From a virus, in IMG/VR virus record IMGVR_UViG_3300035199_000325, positions 1 to 40,822 of that record: a stretch of 40,822 nucleotides of DNA; one strand, given 5' to 3'. This document shows positions 6,419 through 13,270 of the stretch, one piece after another. How positions within the stretch are numbered: the first letter of the stretch is position 1; each line of letters begins with the position of its first letter. The translations under genes were made by a program, and so were the position numbers. The notes beneath the pieces are model-generated. The model had not been told where the DNA came from and ran no database searches. It saw only the letters and a program-made list of their open reading frames with translations.

Positions 6419-6744
6419 GGCGTCATCGCCGTGTTGCTCAACAGCTGGATCAGGGCCGGATGCAGCTCGAGAGTGTCGGCCGCCGGGTCCAGCAGCTCGT
6501 TGCGCGGGTCCAGCAGCACCTCCATGCCAAAGGTGACGCGGAACATGGAGCCTTGCTGGGCAACCTCGATCAGCTTCTCCAGCACCTTCTTGCACTGCTC
6601 GTGATCGTCGAGGTCGAGCCATTCGATCTCGTCTTCATCTTCGGTGATGCAGTCGGGCAGGTAGCCCTTGATCAGCGATTCCAGGAAGGATGCGACCTGC
6701 TGGGCGCATTCCAGGTCCCGCTCGCTGGCGCGTGCCATTTTCAT
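6415..6744 (-). CDS. Hypothetical acidic protein, 109 aa
   Basis: Strongly acidic middle (CITEDEDEIEWLDLDDHEQCKK) flanked by helical segments; net negative charge recalls small phage inhibitors or DNA mimics, but this is only a composition argument. GAGGGA lies 10 bases before the ATG at 6744; a second ATG two codons on is an alternative start. No recognised domain. Confidence 0.75.
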   Translation of the reverse strand: MKMARASERDLECAQQVASFLESLIKGYLPDCITEDEDEIEWLDLDDHEQCKKVLEKLIEVAQQGSMFRVTFGMEVLLDPRNELLDPAADTLELHPALIQLLSNTAMTP

Positions 6745-6823
6745 GCGTGCAATTCCCTCGCTAGATAGGCGGAAAAGAGTTTCCGAAAACGGGTAATAGG
6801 TTTCCGGGGAAGGGGTGACAGGT

Positions 6824-7540
6824 TCAGGCGGCAGCGGCTTGCGTCTGCGCCAGGATTGCGCGGGCGGCGTGCCGGATCATGTAGAGCTCGCGGATCAGCG
6901 ATGCGGACGGGGTGGTGACGCTGATCTCCCACCAGTCAGGCCCCAGGCCAAGCACCTCGCAATGCTCGTTCATGAAGACCCCGGCGTGGTGCTCGTCGCC
7001 GATGTCACTGGCTTCGCGCAGCAGGTCGGACCACTCGTCCCACTTGTCGTCAGCGTCGTCCTTTCTCGCCTCGGCGCTGACGAACTGGCGCAGGTCATGC
7101 CATCGGCTGCCGTCCAGGCCGCGCGCCTTCTCTTCGCGCACCCATTCCGGCATGGCATCAAGCTGTTCGTCGTCAGCGCCCTGGCAGATCAGCTCACAGA
7201 CGCCGCTGATGAGTGCGCCGCGGAATGCCGGCTCATCGAATTCGCGCGTCTTGCATTTCTCGTCGAGCTTCGAGTGGATGTAGTAGCCGATGTCGTTGCC
7301 GGCAAGGAACTCCATGCCGTAGCCCATGCCGACGCTGAAGGTCAGGTTGGCGATGTCGCCCACGACCGCGATGCCGAAGCGAGTGATCATGATGTCGAAG
7401 GCATAGGCGCTGGTGCCGGGCTTCGCGCAGCGCCAGACCTGGCATTCAGGCGTGTCGCTCAGGGCGCGGTAGGTATGGTCCTTCAGGTACTCGGCAGCCT
7501 CGGCCGCGCGCTCGGCGCGGACCTGTTCGTAGGTCTTCAT
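6824..7540 (-). CDS. Hypothetical phage protein, 238 aa
   Basis: Soluble, with no recognised domain. The N-terminus (MKTYEQVRAERAAEAAEYLK) is helical, the middle (TRFGIAVVGDIANLTFSVGMGYGMEF) is Gly-rich and beta-prone, and the C-terminus is helical. The start at 7540 has AAGGA 7 bases upstream; a 20-codon longer version lacks a ribosome site. A 100-base gap upstream separates it from the oppositely oriented 7643 gene, so a promoter for either may lie there, although no clear -35/-10 pair is seen. The 79 bases downstream of its stop hold no gene. Confidence 0.75.
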   Translation of the reverse strand: MKTYEQVRAERAAEAAEYLKDHTYRALSDTPECQVWRCAKPGTSAYAFDIMITRFGIAVVGDIANLTFSVGMGYGMEFLAGNDIGYYIHSKLDEKCKTREFDEPAFRGALISGVCELICQGADDEQLDAMPEWVREEKARGLDGSRWHDLRQFVSAEARKDDADDKWDEWSDLLREASDIGDEHHAGVFMNEHCEVLGLGPDWWEISVTTPSASLIRELYMIRHAARAILAQTQAAAA

Positions 7541-7642
7541 AGGGGATTCCTTCGCCGTAGTGGCGCTATGGCATGGAGTGGGGTAGGTTGATTGCGCCAA
7601 CAGGGAAGTCGGTCAACAGGTCATCAATTCGAGGAGGACCAT

Positions 7643-7846
7643 ATGAATCCCTGCCAAGCTTGTGTTAATCAGAAGGGACAAAGCTTTCGAGTAGGCCCGC
7701 ACCGGAACCTAGTTCTTGTACAGACCTGGGAATGGCCAGGCGGACCCATGGGAGGCAGTCACACAGATCGCCTTTATCAGTGCTCCACCTGCGGCCATCA
7801 GCTCTTCTGGAGCAATGAGAAGATGGGCGACAGAACCTGGTCCTGA
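7643..7846 (+). CDS. Zinc-ribbon protein on the opposite strand (possible moron)
   Basis: 67 aa, with an N-terminal CQAC and a C-terminal CSTCGHQLFW; together these make a four-Cys zinc ribbon around a beta-rich core (LVLVQTWEWPGGPMGGSHTDRL). GAGGAGG lies 5 bases upstream of ATG at 7643. It is the only plus-strand gene inside an 11-kb minus-strand operon and is convergent with the SOS-box gene (4-base gap). Such inverted single genes are typical of morons, acquired cargo with independent expression. Function unknown. Confidence 0.75.
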   Translation: MNPCQACVNQKGQSFRVGPHRNLVLVQTWEWPGGPMGGSHTDRLYQCSTCGHQLFWSNEKMGDRTWS

Positions 7847-7850
7847 CCTC

Positions 7851-8144
7851 TCACGCCACCCTGCAATGCCACGACTGCGCATAGGCCACCCCGTCGATGA
7901 TCTCCGTTCCGGTGATCACCAGGGCGAGGGTGGCCATGCCGTGTATCTGCACGTCGTAGAGCGGAGGTAGCAGCTTGGTGCTGGGCTGCACCTTGAGTAT
8001 CTCGGCGATCAGGGAAGGCCTGCCCATGGGGGAGCGCTCATCCATGCGGATGTACACGTCCCCTCGCAAGGGCTGGACGTTCTTGAGCTTTCGGTCCTCG
8101 ATGGGTTTGCCCTTGTAGCGGAGGCGGCGGATGTCGAAGTGCAT
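7851..8144 (-). CDS. Hypothetical protein directly under a LexA box, 97 aa
   Basis: MHFDIRRLRYKGKPIEDRKL at the start; beta-rich remainder with Pro/Leu (STKLLPPLYDVQIHGMATLA). I believe similar proteins are common in Pseudomonas genomes and phages, all uncharacterised. The ATG at 8144 is only 7 bases from a perfect LexA box, with no ribosome site between, so a leaderless or near-leaderless message is possible. An alternative ATG at 8180 would place the box inside the coding region. The upstream SOS box suggests expression after DNA damage. Confidence 0.75.
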   Translation of the reverse strand: MHFDIRRLRYKGKPIEDRKLKNVQPLRGDVYIRMDERSPMGRPSLIAEILKVQPSTKLLPPLYDVQIHGMATLALVITGTEIIDGVAYAQSWHCRVA

Positions 8145-8150
8145 GGCGAA

Positions 8151-8170
8151 TACTGGATAAATAAACAGTA
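8151..8170 (-). promoter_or_regulatory. LexA (SOS) box
   Basis: TACTG-N10-CAGTA: a CTG(8153)...CAG(8168) core with an A/T-only spacer apart from its first G (GATAAATAAA), plus flanking TA on both sides. This matches the Pseudomonas/E. coli LexA consensus CTG-N10-CAG. It overlaps the expected promoter of the 8144 gene (TTGAAG lies upstream on the minus strand). Confidence 0.8.
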
Positions 8171-8218
8171 TTTTGCGCATGCGCTTCAATTCCGTCCAGA
8201 GCCGTGCGGCTGACTGGA

Positions 8219-8422
8219 TCAGTATTCCGTGGTCAGCGATCCATCCGGCAGGACGCACATCACGTCCACTTCTAGGTCAGGCTCTCTGGTTTCAGCTGCC
8301 CAGGATTGAGCATCCTGCAGGGTGCTGGCGTACACATCCACTGCCTCGAAGAGTGTCCCAGGGTTGAGCACAACCGCGAAGCGGGCGCATGGTGGAGGGG
8401 AGCGGCGAATTTGTCCCTTCAT
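8219..8422 (-). CDS. Small hypothetical protein, 67 aa
   Basis: Basic N-terminus (MKGQIRRSPPP) followed by a soluble alpha/beta segment (FAVVLNPGTLFEAVDVYAST) and an acidic end. No recognised family. It sits between the methyltransferase and the SOS-box gene, with 33 bases upstream and 74 downstream to its neighbours. Confidence 0.65.
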   Translation of the reverse strand: MKGQIRRSPPPCARFAVVLNPGTLFEAVDVYASTLQDAQSWAAETREPDLEVDVMCVLPDGSLTTEY

Positions 8423-8455
8423 GCTGATTCCTTCGAGTTCGTCCAGTGAGGCCGC

Positions 8456-10165
8456 TCAGGCAGCCTGAGCCCTGTAGAGCCTGATAAGTTTCCCGGCGTT
8501 CAACTCGATCAGGTCGGCCGGGTCCTGGGGGCAGACGGCATTGCCGATGCCCTTGATCTGGTTCTCCACGGATATCCCCTTCCACTCCAGCGCGCCCGTC
8601 ACCGGGTCCTCAAACAGCCCCCGGTCGATGATGTAGTCCTCGCGGAACCCCATCGACAGCTTCAGCTCGCGCGGGCGCAGCATCCGCAGGGTGAAGTCCA
8701 CCAGCACGTAGTCGCCGACCAGCACCAGGTCGACCGGATCCGGGAAGTGTTCCGGCAGGTACTTGTGCAGGAAGGCGGCGCACTGCTTGGCCTTCTCCAG
8801 CAGCTCGGGCGGCAGGATGTCGGCCGGCACCTGGTGCACGGTGACCAGTCCCATGCGGGCCTTGGTCGGGAAGGTGTGTGCCGGGTCATGCAGGCTCTGC
8901 CACTGGCCACCGGACTTGTAGTACTTCACCAGAAAGGCCGCCGCGAGCCGCTGGTTGGTACCCCTGCTGGTGATGGTGCTGATCGGGTCGTTCATCGAGC
9001 GCCCGGCGCCATCGTAGAAGCCGCCGTTCGCCTGCTCCATGAAGCAGGCCGCGATGGCGTGATGTCCCGAGCTGGTGGTCAGGGTGTTGATCGGGCTGTG
9101 CAGGCTGGAGCCGGTGGAGCCCTTGCGCAGGGTGATCAGGTTCGCCGCGGCCAGGGCGAAGTGGCCGCCCTTCACCTGGGCGCACTGGGTGCGTAGTGGC
9201 TCCTGCACGCTGAAGGTGCGCTGGCTCGATGCATTGGCGAACTCGGTCAGGTAGGGTGCAAGGGAGTCATCCTCCAGCGGTACGATGAAGGGCTTGTCGG
9301 TCTCAACGACGTGCTTCCAGAAGCCCTTGGCCACTCGCCGATTGGAATTGGCCACCAGGCGATCGTCGATGATCGACTTGCCCAGGTCGGAGAAGTCGAT
9401 GCACTGCCACACCGGCTTCCAGCCTTCCTGGCCCTTGCCTGGGTTCTGGTGAAACTTCGGCTTGGTCCAGAGGATCGGCTCGCCATCGCGACGCGCGATC
9501 AGGAACAAGCGTTTGCGGATGGTTGGGGTTCCAGCGTTGGCCGCGACCCTCACCTGCCATTCCACCTTGTACCCCATGCCGCGTACCAGGTCGGCGGCTG
9601 TGACGTGCCGCCCGATGGCCTTGAGGATGTCGTCGAAGTCCGGGTGATTAGCCGGCAGGCCGCCGCCCAAGGCAGCGATGAAGGCCTTGAAGGTGCGCCC
9701 TCGCTCGCTCTTGATCGGCTTGTGATCCTCGCCGAGCGGGCCCCAATCCTGGAACTCCTCGACGTTCTCCAAGAAGATCATGCGCGGGCGGGTGGCCTGG
9801 GCCCACTGGATCACGACCCAAGCGAGGCTGCGGATCTTCCGATTGACCGGCTTGCCGCCCTTGGCCTTGCTGAAGTGGCGGCAGTCCGGCGAGGCCCAGA
9901 GAATCCCGACCGGCTGACCACCAGTGGCCTCGACCGGATCGACCTCGAACACGTCGGTAATGAAGTGCTTGGTGTTCGGGTGGTTGGCGCGGTGAATCGC
10001 GATCGCCGTGGGGTTGTGGTTGATCGCGATGTCCGGGTGGCGGTAGACACTGGCACCGCCATCGCTGGCGCCGCCGATGCCGGCAAACAGGTCGACGTAC
10101 AGCTCCCACTCCAGCGGGAGAGAAAGCGGCAGAGGGTGGATAGGGAAGTGCTCCGCTGCTGTCAT
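8456..10165 (-). CDS. C5-cytosine DNA methyltransferase (orphan)
   Basis: 569 aa. Motif I is DLFAGIGG (25-32), binding S-adenosylmethionine. Motif IV is ASPDCRHFSKAKGG with catalytic Cys95; the usual Pro-Pro-Cys is Pro-Asp-Cys, a form I associate with phage enzymes. Motif VI is ENV (133-135), and an RKRLFLIAR stretch matches motif VIII. A long target-recognition region follows, then motif X (QIKGIGNAV) near the C-terminus. No restriction partner is nearby, so it probably protects phage DNA or changes regulation. Start at 10165 is firm: AAGGAG 7 bases upstream and ATGA overlap with the stop of the frameshifted upstream gene. A longer open frame to 10543 is an artefact of that frameshift. Confidence 0.92.
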   Translation of the reverse strand: MTAAEHFPIHPLPLSLPLEWELYVDLFAGIGGASDGGASVYRHPDIAINHNPTAIAIHRANHPNTKHFITDVFEVDPVEATGGQPVGILWASPDCRHFSKAKGGKPVNRKIRSLAWVVIQWAQATRPRMIFLENVEEFQDWGPLGEDHKPIKSERGRTFKAFIAALGGGLPANHPDFDDILKAIGRHVTAADLVRGMGYKVEWQVRVAANAGTPTIRKRLFLIARRDGEPILWTKPKFHQNPGKGQEGWKPVWQCIDFSDLGKSIIDDRLVANSNRRVAKGFWKHVVETDKPFIVPLEDDSLAPYLTEFANASSQRTFSVQEPLRTQCAQVKGGHFALAAANLITLRKGSTGSSLHSPINTLTTSSGHHAIAACFMEQANGGFYDGAGRSMNDPISTITSRGTNQRLAAAFLVKYYKSGGQWQSLHDPAHTFPTKARMGLVTVHQVPADILPPELLEKAKQCAAFLHKYLPEHFPDPVDLVLVGDYVLVDFTLRMLRPRELKLSMGFREDYIIDRGLFEDPVTGALEWKGISVENQIKGIGNAVCPQDPADLIELNAGKLIRLYRAQAA

Positions 10166-10543
10166 GCCGCGCTCCTTGCGTTTTGATTCTCGTAATCCCG
10201 CCACCCAATTTTCGGCGCGCCGGTTTTCTTGTTCGTCAGCGGCTTGCCCGAGGCATCGGTCAGTACGACCTTGCACCGTATATGCAGGTGACGGCACGTC
10301 AGCGTGCGGCGCGCCAGGGCAATGAACTCTTCGGCGTACTGGGGGGGCATCGAAGAGCGGACCAAGCTGCTTTACCTTGGTGCCGGCCATGATCTCGTCG
10401 GCGCGTTTCTCGCAGAGCTGAACCCATTCACTCAGTGGAATGGCCACTTCACCCTGGGGAGTGCGTCGGGTGGTCTTCACGTTCTTACGGGCATCGGCCA
10501 GGGCCTGGTCCCGCGTCATGCCGAATACGGCGAAGGTGCTCAT
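10162..10543 (-). pseudogene. Frameshifted phage gene upstream of the methyltransferase
   Basis: The N-terminal frame (MSTFAVFGMTRDQALADARK to GPLFDA) and the C-terminal frame (PQYAEEFIALARRTLTCRHL to WRDYENQNARSAA) read as one protein of about 126 aa if one base of the seven-C run is removed. On the plus strand this is the G-run at 10341-10347. With six C the text is ...FDAPQYAEEF..., ending at a TGA that couples as ATGA to the methyltransferase. With seven C the frame runs on into the methyltransferase frame. Possible explanations: a true indel, a sequencing error in a homopolymer, or +1 frameshifting on CCC-C. Function unknown. Confidence 0.7.
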
Positions 10544-12174: not shown

Positions 12175-12438
12175 TCAGGCCGCTCCGCGTTCCAAGTCAC
12201 GAGCAGCGGCGCAGGCGGCGCGATGGCCCATGCGGAAACCCATCACCTTGCCGGAATAGGCGTCCTTCAGGTGGTAGAAGTCGCGGCCGCAGGGGATGAC
12301 CTGGATCAGCCGAGGCAGCACAGCCTGCACCGAGCGTTGCCGGCGGCGCATGTGGAACTGGGCAATGGCGGCCTTGGTCTTGGCATTCATCTCGACCAAC
12401 TGGGCATGGGCGTCTATCACGCCTTGGGAGATTTCCAT
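12175..12438 (-). CDS. First gene after the leftward leader, 87 aa, unknown
   Basis: Basic, Gln/Arg-rich (AAIAQFHMRRRQRSVQAVLP) with a C-terminal half (YHLKDAYSGKVMGFRMGHRA). The start at 12438 has GAGGTG at 12445-12450. A longer in-frame version to 12573 would read through the target repeats and terminator-like hairpin of the leader and is not preferred. Its start region lies immediately downstream of the sequence matched by the candidate C4 RNA, so it is probably the gene that RNA controls. No recognised family; resemblance to a phage antirepressor is not visible. Confidence 0.75.
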   Translation of the reverse strand: MEISQGVIDAHAQLVEMNAKTKAAIAQFHMRRRQRSVQAVLPRLIQVIPCGRDFYHLKDAYSGKVMGFRMGHRAACAAARDLERGAA

Positions 12439-12458
12439 GGTGTGCACCTCGTGCTGTG

Positions 12459-12478
12459 AAAAGCCGGCCTTGGCCAGC
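12459..12478 (-). terminator. Attenuator-like hairpin upstream of the 12438 gene
   Basis: On the minus strand GCTGGC (12478-12473), loop CAAG, GCCGGC (12468-12463) form a 6-bp stem with one G-U pair, followed by TTTT (12462-12459). The 5' arm overlaps by 2 bases the CTCCGC segment that matches loop 2 of the candidate C4 RNA. Confidence 0.5.
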
Positions 12479-12482
12479 GGAG

Positions 12483-12507
12483 GGAATAGGTGCCGGACTT
12501 TCCCGGC
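12483..12507 (-). repeat. C4 target repeat 1 (14-bp repeat plus stem-loop)
   Basis: GGAATAGGTGCCGG (12483-12496, plus strand) is identical to the copy at 12652-12665. In both, GCCGG pairs with a nearby CCGGC (here loop ACTTTC) to make a hairpin. The minus-strand version includes CCGGCACCUAU, complementary to the AUAGG-GCUGG part of the candidate RNA. Confidence 0.6.
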
Positions 12508-12651
12508 GGTCAGCGGCCCAACTGTTGCACCGGCATTTCTTCGGCGATGAAGTCCGTGCTCAGCGCCGGACAAGGCCCCGTCGAGCCCTCGCGTACCCCT
12601 GACTACCAGGCCAGCCGTTTAGGGATGCGCCGCCGCAACCCATCAGTTCGT

Positions 12652-12674
12652 GGAATAGGTGCCGGCTTACCGGC
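12652..12674 (-). repeat. C4 target repeat 2 (14-bp repeat plus stem-loop)
   Basis: Second copy of GGAATAGGTGCCGG, with GCCGG-CTTA-CCGGC hairpin (12661-12674). It lacks the adjacent CUCCGC segment found at repeat 1. Located directly after (minus direction) a terminator-like hairpin. Confidence 0.6.
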
Positions 12675-12698
12675 AAAAGGGCCCCGCGTGCATGGGGC
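12675..12698 (-). terminator. Weak terminator-like hairpin in leader
   Basis: On the minus strand GCCCC (12698-12694) pairs with GGGGC (12685-12681) across an 8-nt loop, then CC and TTTT (12678-12675). Short stem; it could end a C4 precursor transcript. Confidence 0.35.
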
Positions 12699-12831
12699 AT
12701 GGAAGGGTGTTGCGCTGCCGGTTACGTCTCCGGCGCTGGCTTCACAGCCGTCTGCTTGGAACTGGTGGGCAGGCGGGGTGCTACTCCCGCTATCCTCATA
12801 GGCCGACAAAGCCTTTCTCTCTGCGGTCGGT

Positions 12832-12885
12832 CGTGGCCCCGATTGCTCCGCCAATCAACTTTAACCAGCCCTATGCTGGTCCACG
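12832..12885 (-). ncRNA. Candidate C4-like antisense RNA
   Basis: Read on the minus strand the segment folds as a closed two-hairpin element. The outer stem is CGTGG (12885-12881) with CCACG (12836-12832). Hairpin 1 is ACCAGC-ATAGG-GCTGGT (12880-12864). Hairpin 2 is GATTG-GCGGAG-CAATC (12856-12841). Loop 1 plus its 3' arm (AUAGGGCUGG) pairs with CCGGCACCUAU in both downstream repeats, with one bulge and one G-U pair. Loop 2 (GCGGAG) is the exact complement of CUCCGC beside repeat 1. This matches the architecture of phage P1/P7 C4 RNA and, more loosely, P4 CI RNA, which repress early phage genes. The fold is seen by eye; expression and processing are inferred. No convincing dedicated promoter was found. 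Confidence 0.6.
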
Positions 12886-13048
12886 CCCCCGGTCGTTCAG
12901 GTGCGCTCGGAGCTACGTTGCGCTGCGTGTCTGCTTTCCACGCCGCTGCCCATAAATCGTTGCCCCTGATCGCCCAGGCGGGGCCTTTCCTGCGTTGCAT
13001 CCGGTTCGCTCCTGCTTGCCGGTGGCGCCCCGTGTCGTTACCGCGGGG

Positions 13049-13270
13049 TTACTGCAGAACGCGCAGTTCGTTGCGCGGGTACCACTTGCCGTCGACTTCG
13101 ACCATGCAGCCGATGAAGGCGGCGTAGCGGGTGTCGCGCTCGGTCTGGTAGCCGTACCAGGAGCAGGAGCCCCAGGAGACCAGCCGGCTGACAATCCAGA
13201 GCACGCCAAGGAAGACGATCATGACCACGAGCACGCCCCTCAGCGGATTGGCGCGCAGCCAGGCATTCAC
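13049..13270 (-). CDS. Small single-pass membrane protein, 73 aa
   Basis: One N-terminal transmembrane helix (residues 11-31, RGVLVVMIVFLGVLWIVSRL) followed by a soluble domain with two Cys (CSWYGYQTERDTRYAAFIGC) and a conserved-looking end (VDGKWYPRNELRV). Proteins of this type are frequent in the early region of Pseudomonas phages; function unknown. Start overlaps the TerB gene's stop by 4 bases, so the two are coupled. Confidence 0.8.
   Translation of the reverse strand: MNAWLRANPLRGVLVVMIVFLGVLWIVSRLVSWGSCSWYGYQTERDTRYAAFIGCMVEVDGKWYPRNELRVLQ

Follow-up and report, generated by a model that had tools for sequence, protein, structure and literature searches.

In this phage, the leftward region that follows the CI-like repressor raises the question of which RNA it encodes and whether that RNA acts in immunity. 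The original prediction had placed there a 54-nt two-hairpin RNA of the C4/P4-CI antisense type. We addressed this question in the window, i.e., the whole 40,822-nt stretch of DNA analyzed (IMG/VR record IMGVR_UViG_3300035199_000325, positions 1 to 40,822), in which the element lies on the minus strand.

The two-hairpin domain lies within a larger RNA

The predicted 54-nt element (12885 to 12832, minus) has the sequence and fold originally drawn, but it does not stand alone: it sits inside an RNA of ~187 nt at 12952 to 12766, supported by the match of covariance model R1 (see below) and by homologues in phage PotUPM1 and IMG/VR contigs. When excised, the 54-nt element forms the CGUGG/CCACG closing stem and the AUAGG and GCGGAG loops (−19.2 kcal/mol; z = −2.6) as proposed, and this stem covaries in relatives, with changes on both sides (CAUGG/CCAUG, GGUGG/CCACC, and CACGG/CCGUG). 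In the unconstrained fold of 12952 to 12766, however, a closing stem (P1) and two hairpins, A and C, are formed, and the 54-nt domain is broken up.

In 5′-to-3′ order on the minus strand, the RNA comprises P1, a CG spacer, hairpin A, a hypervariable insert, hairpin C, and the second strand of P1 (P1′). The 5′ strand of P1 (UGGGCAG, 12946 to 12952) has its partner in CUGCCCA (12766 to 12772), which adjoins hairpin C without a gap. The 2-nt CG spacer (12944 to 12945), whose spacing is fixed in all elements, leads to hairpin A (GCGUG-GAAAGCAGA-CACGC, 12925 to 12943), the stem of which covaries. The insert begins with a 12-nt linker, J2/3 (AGCGCAACGUAG, 12913 to 12924), largely constant across the Pseudomonas class, and continues with the hairpin CUCCG...CGGGG (12887 to 12912), kept across the same class. 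It is followed by the 54-nt domain (12832 to 12885), a variable portion represented among relatives by several unrelated loop and arm sequences, and by a conserved 3′ part with the hairpin AAAGGC...GCCU and GAGGAUA (12791 to 12831), which is kept in the Pseudomonas class and is also found in contigs L100, L119, and L138. Hairpin C (GCGGG-AGUAGCAC-CCCGC, 12773 to 12790) has UAGCA in its loop instead of the usual UAGCG; at least 20 versions of its stem occur among relatives, with 99% of the cells paired. We refer to RNAs of this build as shell-and-cargo RNAs, a name coined in this analysis, and define two types. With its P1, CG spacer, GAAAGCAGA loop, UAGC-containing loop C, and gapless junction to P1′, the window element is type I.

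Open reading frames laid over the RNA (window, 12722 to 13000, minus; L001, 12099 to 12431; L010, 5994 to 6467) resemble artifacts of RNA conservation, KADTQRNVAPSAPERP in these frames being the shell and linker in translation.

Pairing with the leftward leader is at chance

The two loops had been proposed to pair with repeats in the leftward leader. An exact 14-nt repeat, CCGGCACCUAUUCC, is indeed present outside the RNA at 12652 to 12665 and 12483 to 12496 (both minus); however, CCGGCACCUAUUCC with CUCCGC is missing from most relatives, and the pair of copies was not found in them. Pairing of loop 1 with the leader was no stronger than with shuffled leaders (−15.3 versus −14.2 ± 1.6 kcal/mol; P = 0.26). 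By chance, 13% of shuffled leaders contain CUCCGC, the supposed loop 2 target, and loop 2 (GGCGGA/G) is conserved even in relatives without this target. The hairpins with U4 at 12698 to 12675 and 12478 to 12459 (minus) do exist, the latter, terminator-like one (GCUGGCC-AA-GGCCGGC-UUUU) lying outside the RNA and ahead of the 12438 gene, but the suggestion that they are attenuators was not confirmed, both falling below a simple terminator scan (U4 only). As a separate observation, short hairpins of the form GCCGG-NAAAG-CCGGC followed by CACC recur ahead of the first left gene in the window (12690 to 12480, minus) and in the leaders of L005, L008, and L013; they resemble boxB-like sites.

Scanning with the Rfam C4 model (RF01695) gave no match in 12300 to 13050 at E ≤ 5 and none anywhere in the record even at E ≤ 10. 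We then compared the complementarity of inserts to their own and to foreign neighborhoods. Across 94 elements, with 2 kb of flanks searched, the values were 8.69 and 8.64 nt, respectively, and no own-versus-foreign excess was seen over 2.5 kb in the Pseudomonas class. The window insert does pair unusually well with codons at the start of its second downstream gene at ~12138 to 12108 (−39.6 versus −30.8 ± 2.6 kcal/mol; P ~ 0.013, uncorrected), but such antisense to downstream genes stands out for the window and L013/L015 only and not for the class. A cis-acting, C4-like role is thus unlikely, since the 94 elements show no excess complementarity to their own neighborhoods. What survives of the original proposal is that a genuine structured RNA, distinct from the CI protein, lies leftward of and behind the CI-like repressor gene; its assignment as a C4/P4-CI antisense RNA is not supported.

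Type I elements covary and are widespread in phages

By BLAST, one phage was found, PotUPM1, whose 78% identity covers sequence beyond the 54-nt element; an exact 18-mer from this matching sequence led to six viral contigs. The P1 sequence differs from phage to phage yet pairs: UGGGCAG/CUGCCCA in the window, GGAUCGGUUU/AAACCGAUCC in L004, UGGGUGAUCUG/CAGAUCACCCA in PotUPM1, and GAUGCAGAAG/CUUCUGCAUC in others. The hairpin A 20-mer CGGCGUGGAAAGCAGACACG occurs exactly in at least 119 IMG/VR contigs, counts in this database being lower bounds, whereas we estimate a chance expectation of ~0.1; a survey of 84,980 species genomes found hairpin A in 33 stretches, mostly from Pseudomonadota. Hairpin C (UAGCG or UAGCA loop) and P1′ follow at a fixed offset after 136 of the 163 hairpin A matches, 123 of these elements being non-redundant.

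Because the 136 elements were selected by pairing in both helices, the following tests weigh more. Elements located through hairpin C alone still have hairpin A correctly placed, with compensatory stems (GCGGG/CCCGC, GCGCU/AGCGC, GCACG/CGUGC, and GCAUG/CAUGC). The two P1 strands pair at 7.7 of 8 positions within an element, compared to 4.3 between elements. For 25 diverse elements, 98.2% of the cells were paired, versus 77.4% ± 1.1% after shuffling and at most 43.5% when slid, and both-side changes were present in 14 of 18 pairs. In P1, 97% of the cells were paired, 7 of 8 pairs had changed on both sides, and G-U pairs made up ~2%. In a set of 148 cores, covariation was likewise seen for each of the three shell helices.

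A covariance model, R1, was built from these 25 elements, which come from unrelated phages and include none from the class of the window. R1 matched the window at 12953 to 12765 with 60.3 bits (E = 9e-12); it also matched Persinger, which belongs to the 25, as well as Orimi01, POI1126, and D14H. Nine host genomes that were checked had one copy each, and a wider search found the element in 1 of 400 Pseudomonas genomes and 2 of 274 genomes of the class, so it is mainly a phage feature. No family of Rfam release 15 matches the RNA, and a literature search of incomplete coverage, which leaves room for an earlier description elsewhere, returned no description. Altogether, the window feature is almost certainly a conserved structured element of an unannotated phage RNA class. 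The outer scaffold is common to very different bacterial viruses, and the inner part is almost wholly replaced from virus to virus.

Inserts are replaced wholesale

Insert length ranged from 45 to 199 nt, and 95 of 123 inserts resembled no other at an E value of 1e-3. Contigs L057 and L068 have flanks ~96% identical over ~124 bases upstream and 330 bases downstream, together with the same P1 and hairpins, and carry unrelated inserts of 158 and 64 nt; L066 and L126 likewise have swapped inserts, with a shorter shared flank. Islands of homology stop near the element. Compensatory changes preserve the shell across unrelated phages, whereas the entire insert is exchanged, even where the flanks are nearly identical. 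L057 has, in addition, at least four stem-closed units within 6599 to 8446 of this metagenomic phage contig; in two, the loops have diverged (GAAGGA/AAUCAAGC and AGUUGCGAU/ACAAGCAA).

Many inserts start with a 12- to 15-nt linker and then have a helix, P3, that closes the insert 1 to 3 nt before hairpin C; P3 started at positions 12 to 15 in 27 cases, compared to ~3.5 expected. Inserts folded slightly better than their shuffles, but with a mean z of only −0.34 a well-folded arm is not general. Of 158 inserts, 7 contained a tRNA T-arm motif, compared to 0.08 for shuffled inserts and 0.7 for random segments, and tRNA families matched inside the inserts of L116 and L191.

Hypervariable parts are also known from the VIPR vrRNAs, phage intergenic RNAs that form arrays and occur in part in Pseudomonas prophages (preprint PMC13142463). 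vrRNAs consist of 9 to 16 YNNGG tandem repeats and come with a Vipr protein (PMC13142463). In contrast, a period-5 GG excess was absent from the 158 inserts, and VIPR-like period-5 repeats were rejected.

A sister RNA in phage P1, mEp460, and E. coli

A geometry search without any sequence requirement yielded 82 units, compared to 9 in shuffles, and exposed a second loop set. In the corresponding type II RNAs, the spacer is AA, and hairpins A and C read UGCGC-AGGCUGAU-GCGC and GCCGG-AGAUCAGCA-CCGGC, respectively; inserts are again hypervariable and P1 stems private. With a 63-nt query of the shell parts and partial matches included, type II was found in 239 phage records, P1 and mEp460 among them, and in 1,349 of 5,426 complete E. 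coli genomes; matches covering ≥80% of the query numbered 118 records and 910 genomes. Among the 25 matches listed for E. coli genomes, none had an annotated feature under it. Since model R1 fails to detect type II, the two types share architecture but not recognizable sequence. The window has type I loops rather than the AA spacer and the AGGCUGAU and AUCAGC loops, and no type II hairpin beyond chance. Contig L285 contains a genuine C4 RNA and a type II element at separate positions.

The loops of type II hairpins A and C are complementary (GCUGAU/AUCAGC). In variants chosen by a change in hairpin A, hairpin C mostly matches (GUCGAU/AUCGAC, UGCGAU/AUCGCA, and GUUGAU/AUCAAC), and the loop pair GGUGAU/AUCACC arose separately from these variants. 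Pairing is broken in L409 and retained as G-U in L420. Overall, 93.7% of the cells of the loop helix are paired, and 3 of 6 pairs have changed on both sides. On this basis, the two hairpin loops of type II kiss through a helix that covaries and corresponds to the tRNA elbow. Type I loops show at most a GC/GC contact, and kissing is shown in type II only.

In mEp460, type II lies directly 3′ of the CI repressor; in P1, it follows tRNA-Asn and tRNA-Thr, among several tandem stem-closed units. The P1 run of such RNA-like units (L398; OP279344.1, ~65560 to 66450) extends from tRNA-Thr to tciA. Besides two type II elements, it holds several further units, of which two have tRNA T-arm-like hairpins under stems of 9 to 14 bp. 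A third kind in this run reads UUGCGGUG-AA-UGCG-GCUAAG-CGCA...CCGGG-AGGAA-CCCGG-CACCGCAA. Among the Pseudomonas relatives, L007 (4034 to 4139), L105, L019, and L003 have a second stem-closed RNA, type II-like or other, a few hundred bases after type I.

Comparison with tRNA and other phage RNAs

Along a tRNA strand, the acceptor is followed by 2 nt, the D arm, the middle, the T arm, and the acceptor again. The parts of shell-and-cargo RNAs have this order: an acceptor-like stem, a 2-nt spacer, a D-like hairpin, a middle, and an unspaced T-like hairpin. The likeness, which also applies to the tRNA-like domain of tmRNA, extends to the loop-loop contact of type II and to the adjoining tRNA genes in P1. 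However, hairpin C has no T-loop sequence, the length of P1 varies, and most inserts are unlike an anticodon arm. The shell has no tRNA match, and neither ARAGORN nor Rfam detected a tRNA in the window. tRNA genes lay within 200 bases of 7 of the 123 elements, a small excess over the 2.8% expected. Two phages with type I elements, L038 and L054, have very large tRNA arrays (in L054, >30 tRNA genes in 13 kb).

GOLLD is a large phage and prophage RNA found near tRNAs. It resembles the RNAs described here as a structured, tRNA-associated phage RNA; it is far larger, however, and no Rfam match was obtained here. The structure of GOLLD is available (PMC12286853). C4 of P1/P7 is likewise phage borne, lies near early genes, and has two hairpins under a closing stem, whereas the window RNA is not matched by the C4 model, lacks a conserved target, and has a far larger shell with different loops. 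The Proteo-phage-1 RNA (RF03044) is also a small phage RNA, but it is a separate element with its own model; in L117 (1355 to 1435), it lies ~140 bases from a type I element.

Genomic context and expression signals

No constant partner protein was found; CI-like repressors are the commonest neighbor. In PotUPM1 and mEp460, the element is at the beginning of the left operon, immediately behind the CI-like repressor, and in the window it is downstream of the repressor. The element of Persinger lies behind an integrase and has its own terminator, and that of POI1126 is in a small gene island between the capsid and portal genes. A strict −10 hexamer precedes 11% of the elements, compared to 3 to 5% elsewhere, and close terminators were detected for 3 of 123. 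Downstream terminators are slightly enriched (17% versus 9 to 11%), and several relatives have terminator-like hairpins further downstream. With such signals confined to a minority, a dedicated promoter or terminator for all elements was rejected. Elsewhere in the window, 8456 to 10543 (minus) encodes a 695-amino-acid cytosine-C5 DNA methylase, whose closest counterpart is in phage LPPA36 (63% identity).

Proposed function of shell-and-cargo RNAs

Our favored reading, to which we give a probability of about 0.45, is that of a tRNA-like scaffold with an exchanged insert that would be processed and serve as a decoy. The RNA would be excised from an early transcript, although some phages would transcribe it from a promoter of its own. 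Compactness and stability would come from the shell, and the working part would be the fast-changing insert arm, binding or decoying a quickly changing factor of the host or of a rival phage. A defense nuclease acting on tRNA-like RNA would be the first choice for this factor. We propose excision or an own promoter, a stabilizing shell, and binding or decoying by the insert arm, taken jointly, more tentatively. An arms-race role fits because of the hypervariability, the cassette exchange, the tRNA-like inserts, and the early or accessory positions.

A decoy for tRNA-directed defense is our first guess, and a trans-acting antisense RNA comes next. In the latter case, the 12- to 15-nt linker or the insert arm would pair with a transcript of the host or of a rival phage, the shell serving only to stabilize the RNA. 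In its favor are the linker ahead of P3, which varies in sequence but not in length, and the hypervariability and cassette exchange. Against it, linker sequence is fairly uniform within the Pseudomonas class, and complementarity was absent from the neighborhood, to which the search was limited. On balance, we consider this unlikely.

More doubtful still is a cis-acting leader element that would signal antitermination or processing in the early operon, with the insert as a passive spacer. The position relative to the CI-like repressor in PotUPM1, mEp460, and the window and the hairpins further downstream in several relatives are in its favor. However, the other settings (the integrase and own terminator in Persinger, the capsid/portal island in POI1126, and the tRNAs in P1) and the modest terminator enrichment speak against it, and a passive spacer should shrink.

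A mobile or recombination module, with the hairpins as DNA ends for insert exchange and the fold acting in single-stranded DNA, would explain why homology islands end near the element and inserts are swapped, and we kept a role in single-stranded DNA as a candidate because G-U pairs are few in P1. It is nonetheless improbable: P1 is private to each phage and yet paired, unlike sequence-based end recognition, the nine host genomes checked had one copy each, the kissing helix retains some G-U, and tRNA-like inserts are associated. Finally, a C4/P4-CI-type immunity RNA whose loops pair with leader repeats and halt early gene expression, suggested by the two-hairpin shape, the exact repeat, the location after the repressor, and the uncorrected pairing with the second downstream gene, is hardly tenable, and C4 membership was rejected, given the lack of a model match at any threshold used, loop-leader pairing at chance, unconserved target sites, and the absent own-versus-foreign excess.

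A scaffold that stays frozen while its inserts are exchanged wholesale is the trace expected from an arms race. In a broader and somewhat unlikely version, phages would swap fast-evolving effector arms as cassettes into a general tRNA-like, kissing-arm RNA chassis, sometimes in tandem arrays beside tRNA genes, and act in this way on host defense or rival phages. If true, this chassis would be the RNA counterpart of exchangeable anti-defense protein islands. The RNA would also account for spurious open reading frames annotated across such regions, e.g., in PotUPM1 and Orimi01. Since P1 and lambdoid phages carry type II, its function is testable with ordinary tools. Two strongly covarying RNA types are present in many unrelated phages, and about a quarter of complete E. 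coli genomes carry type II in prophages or plasmids.
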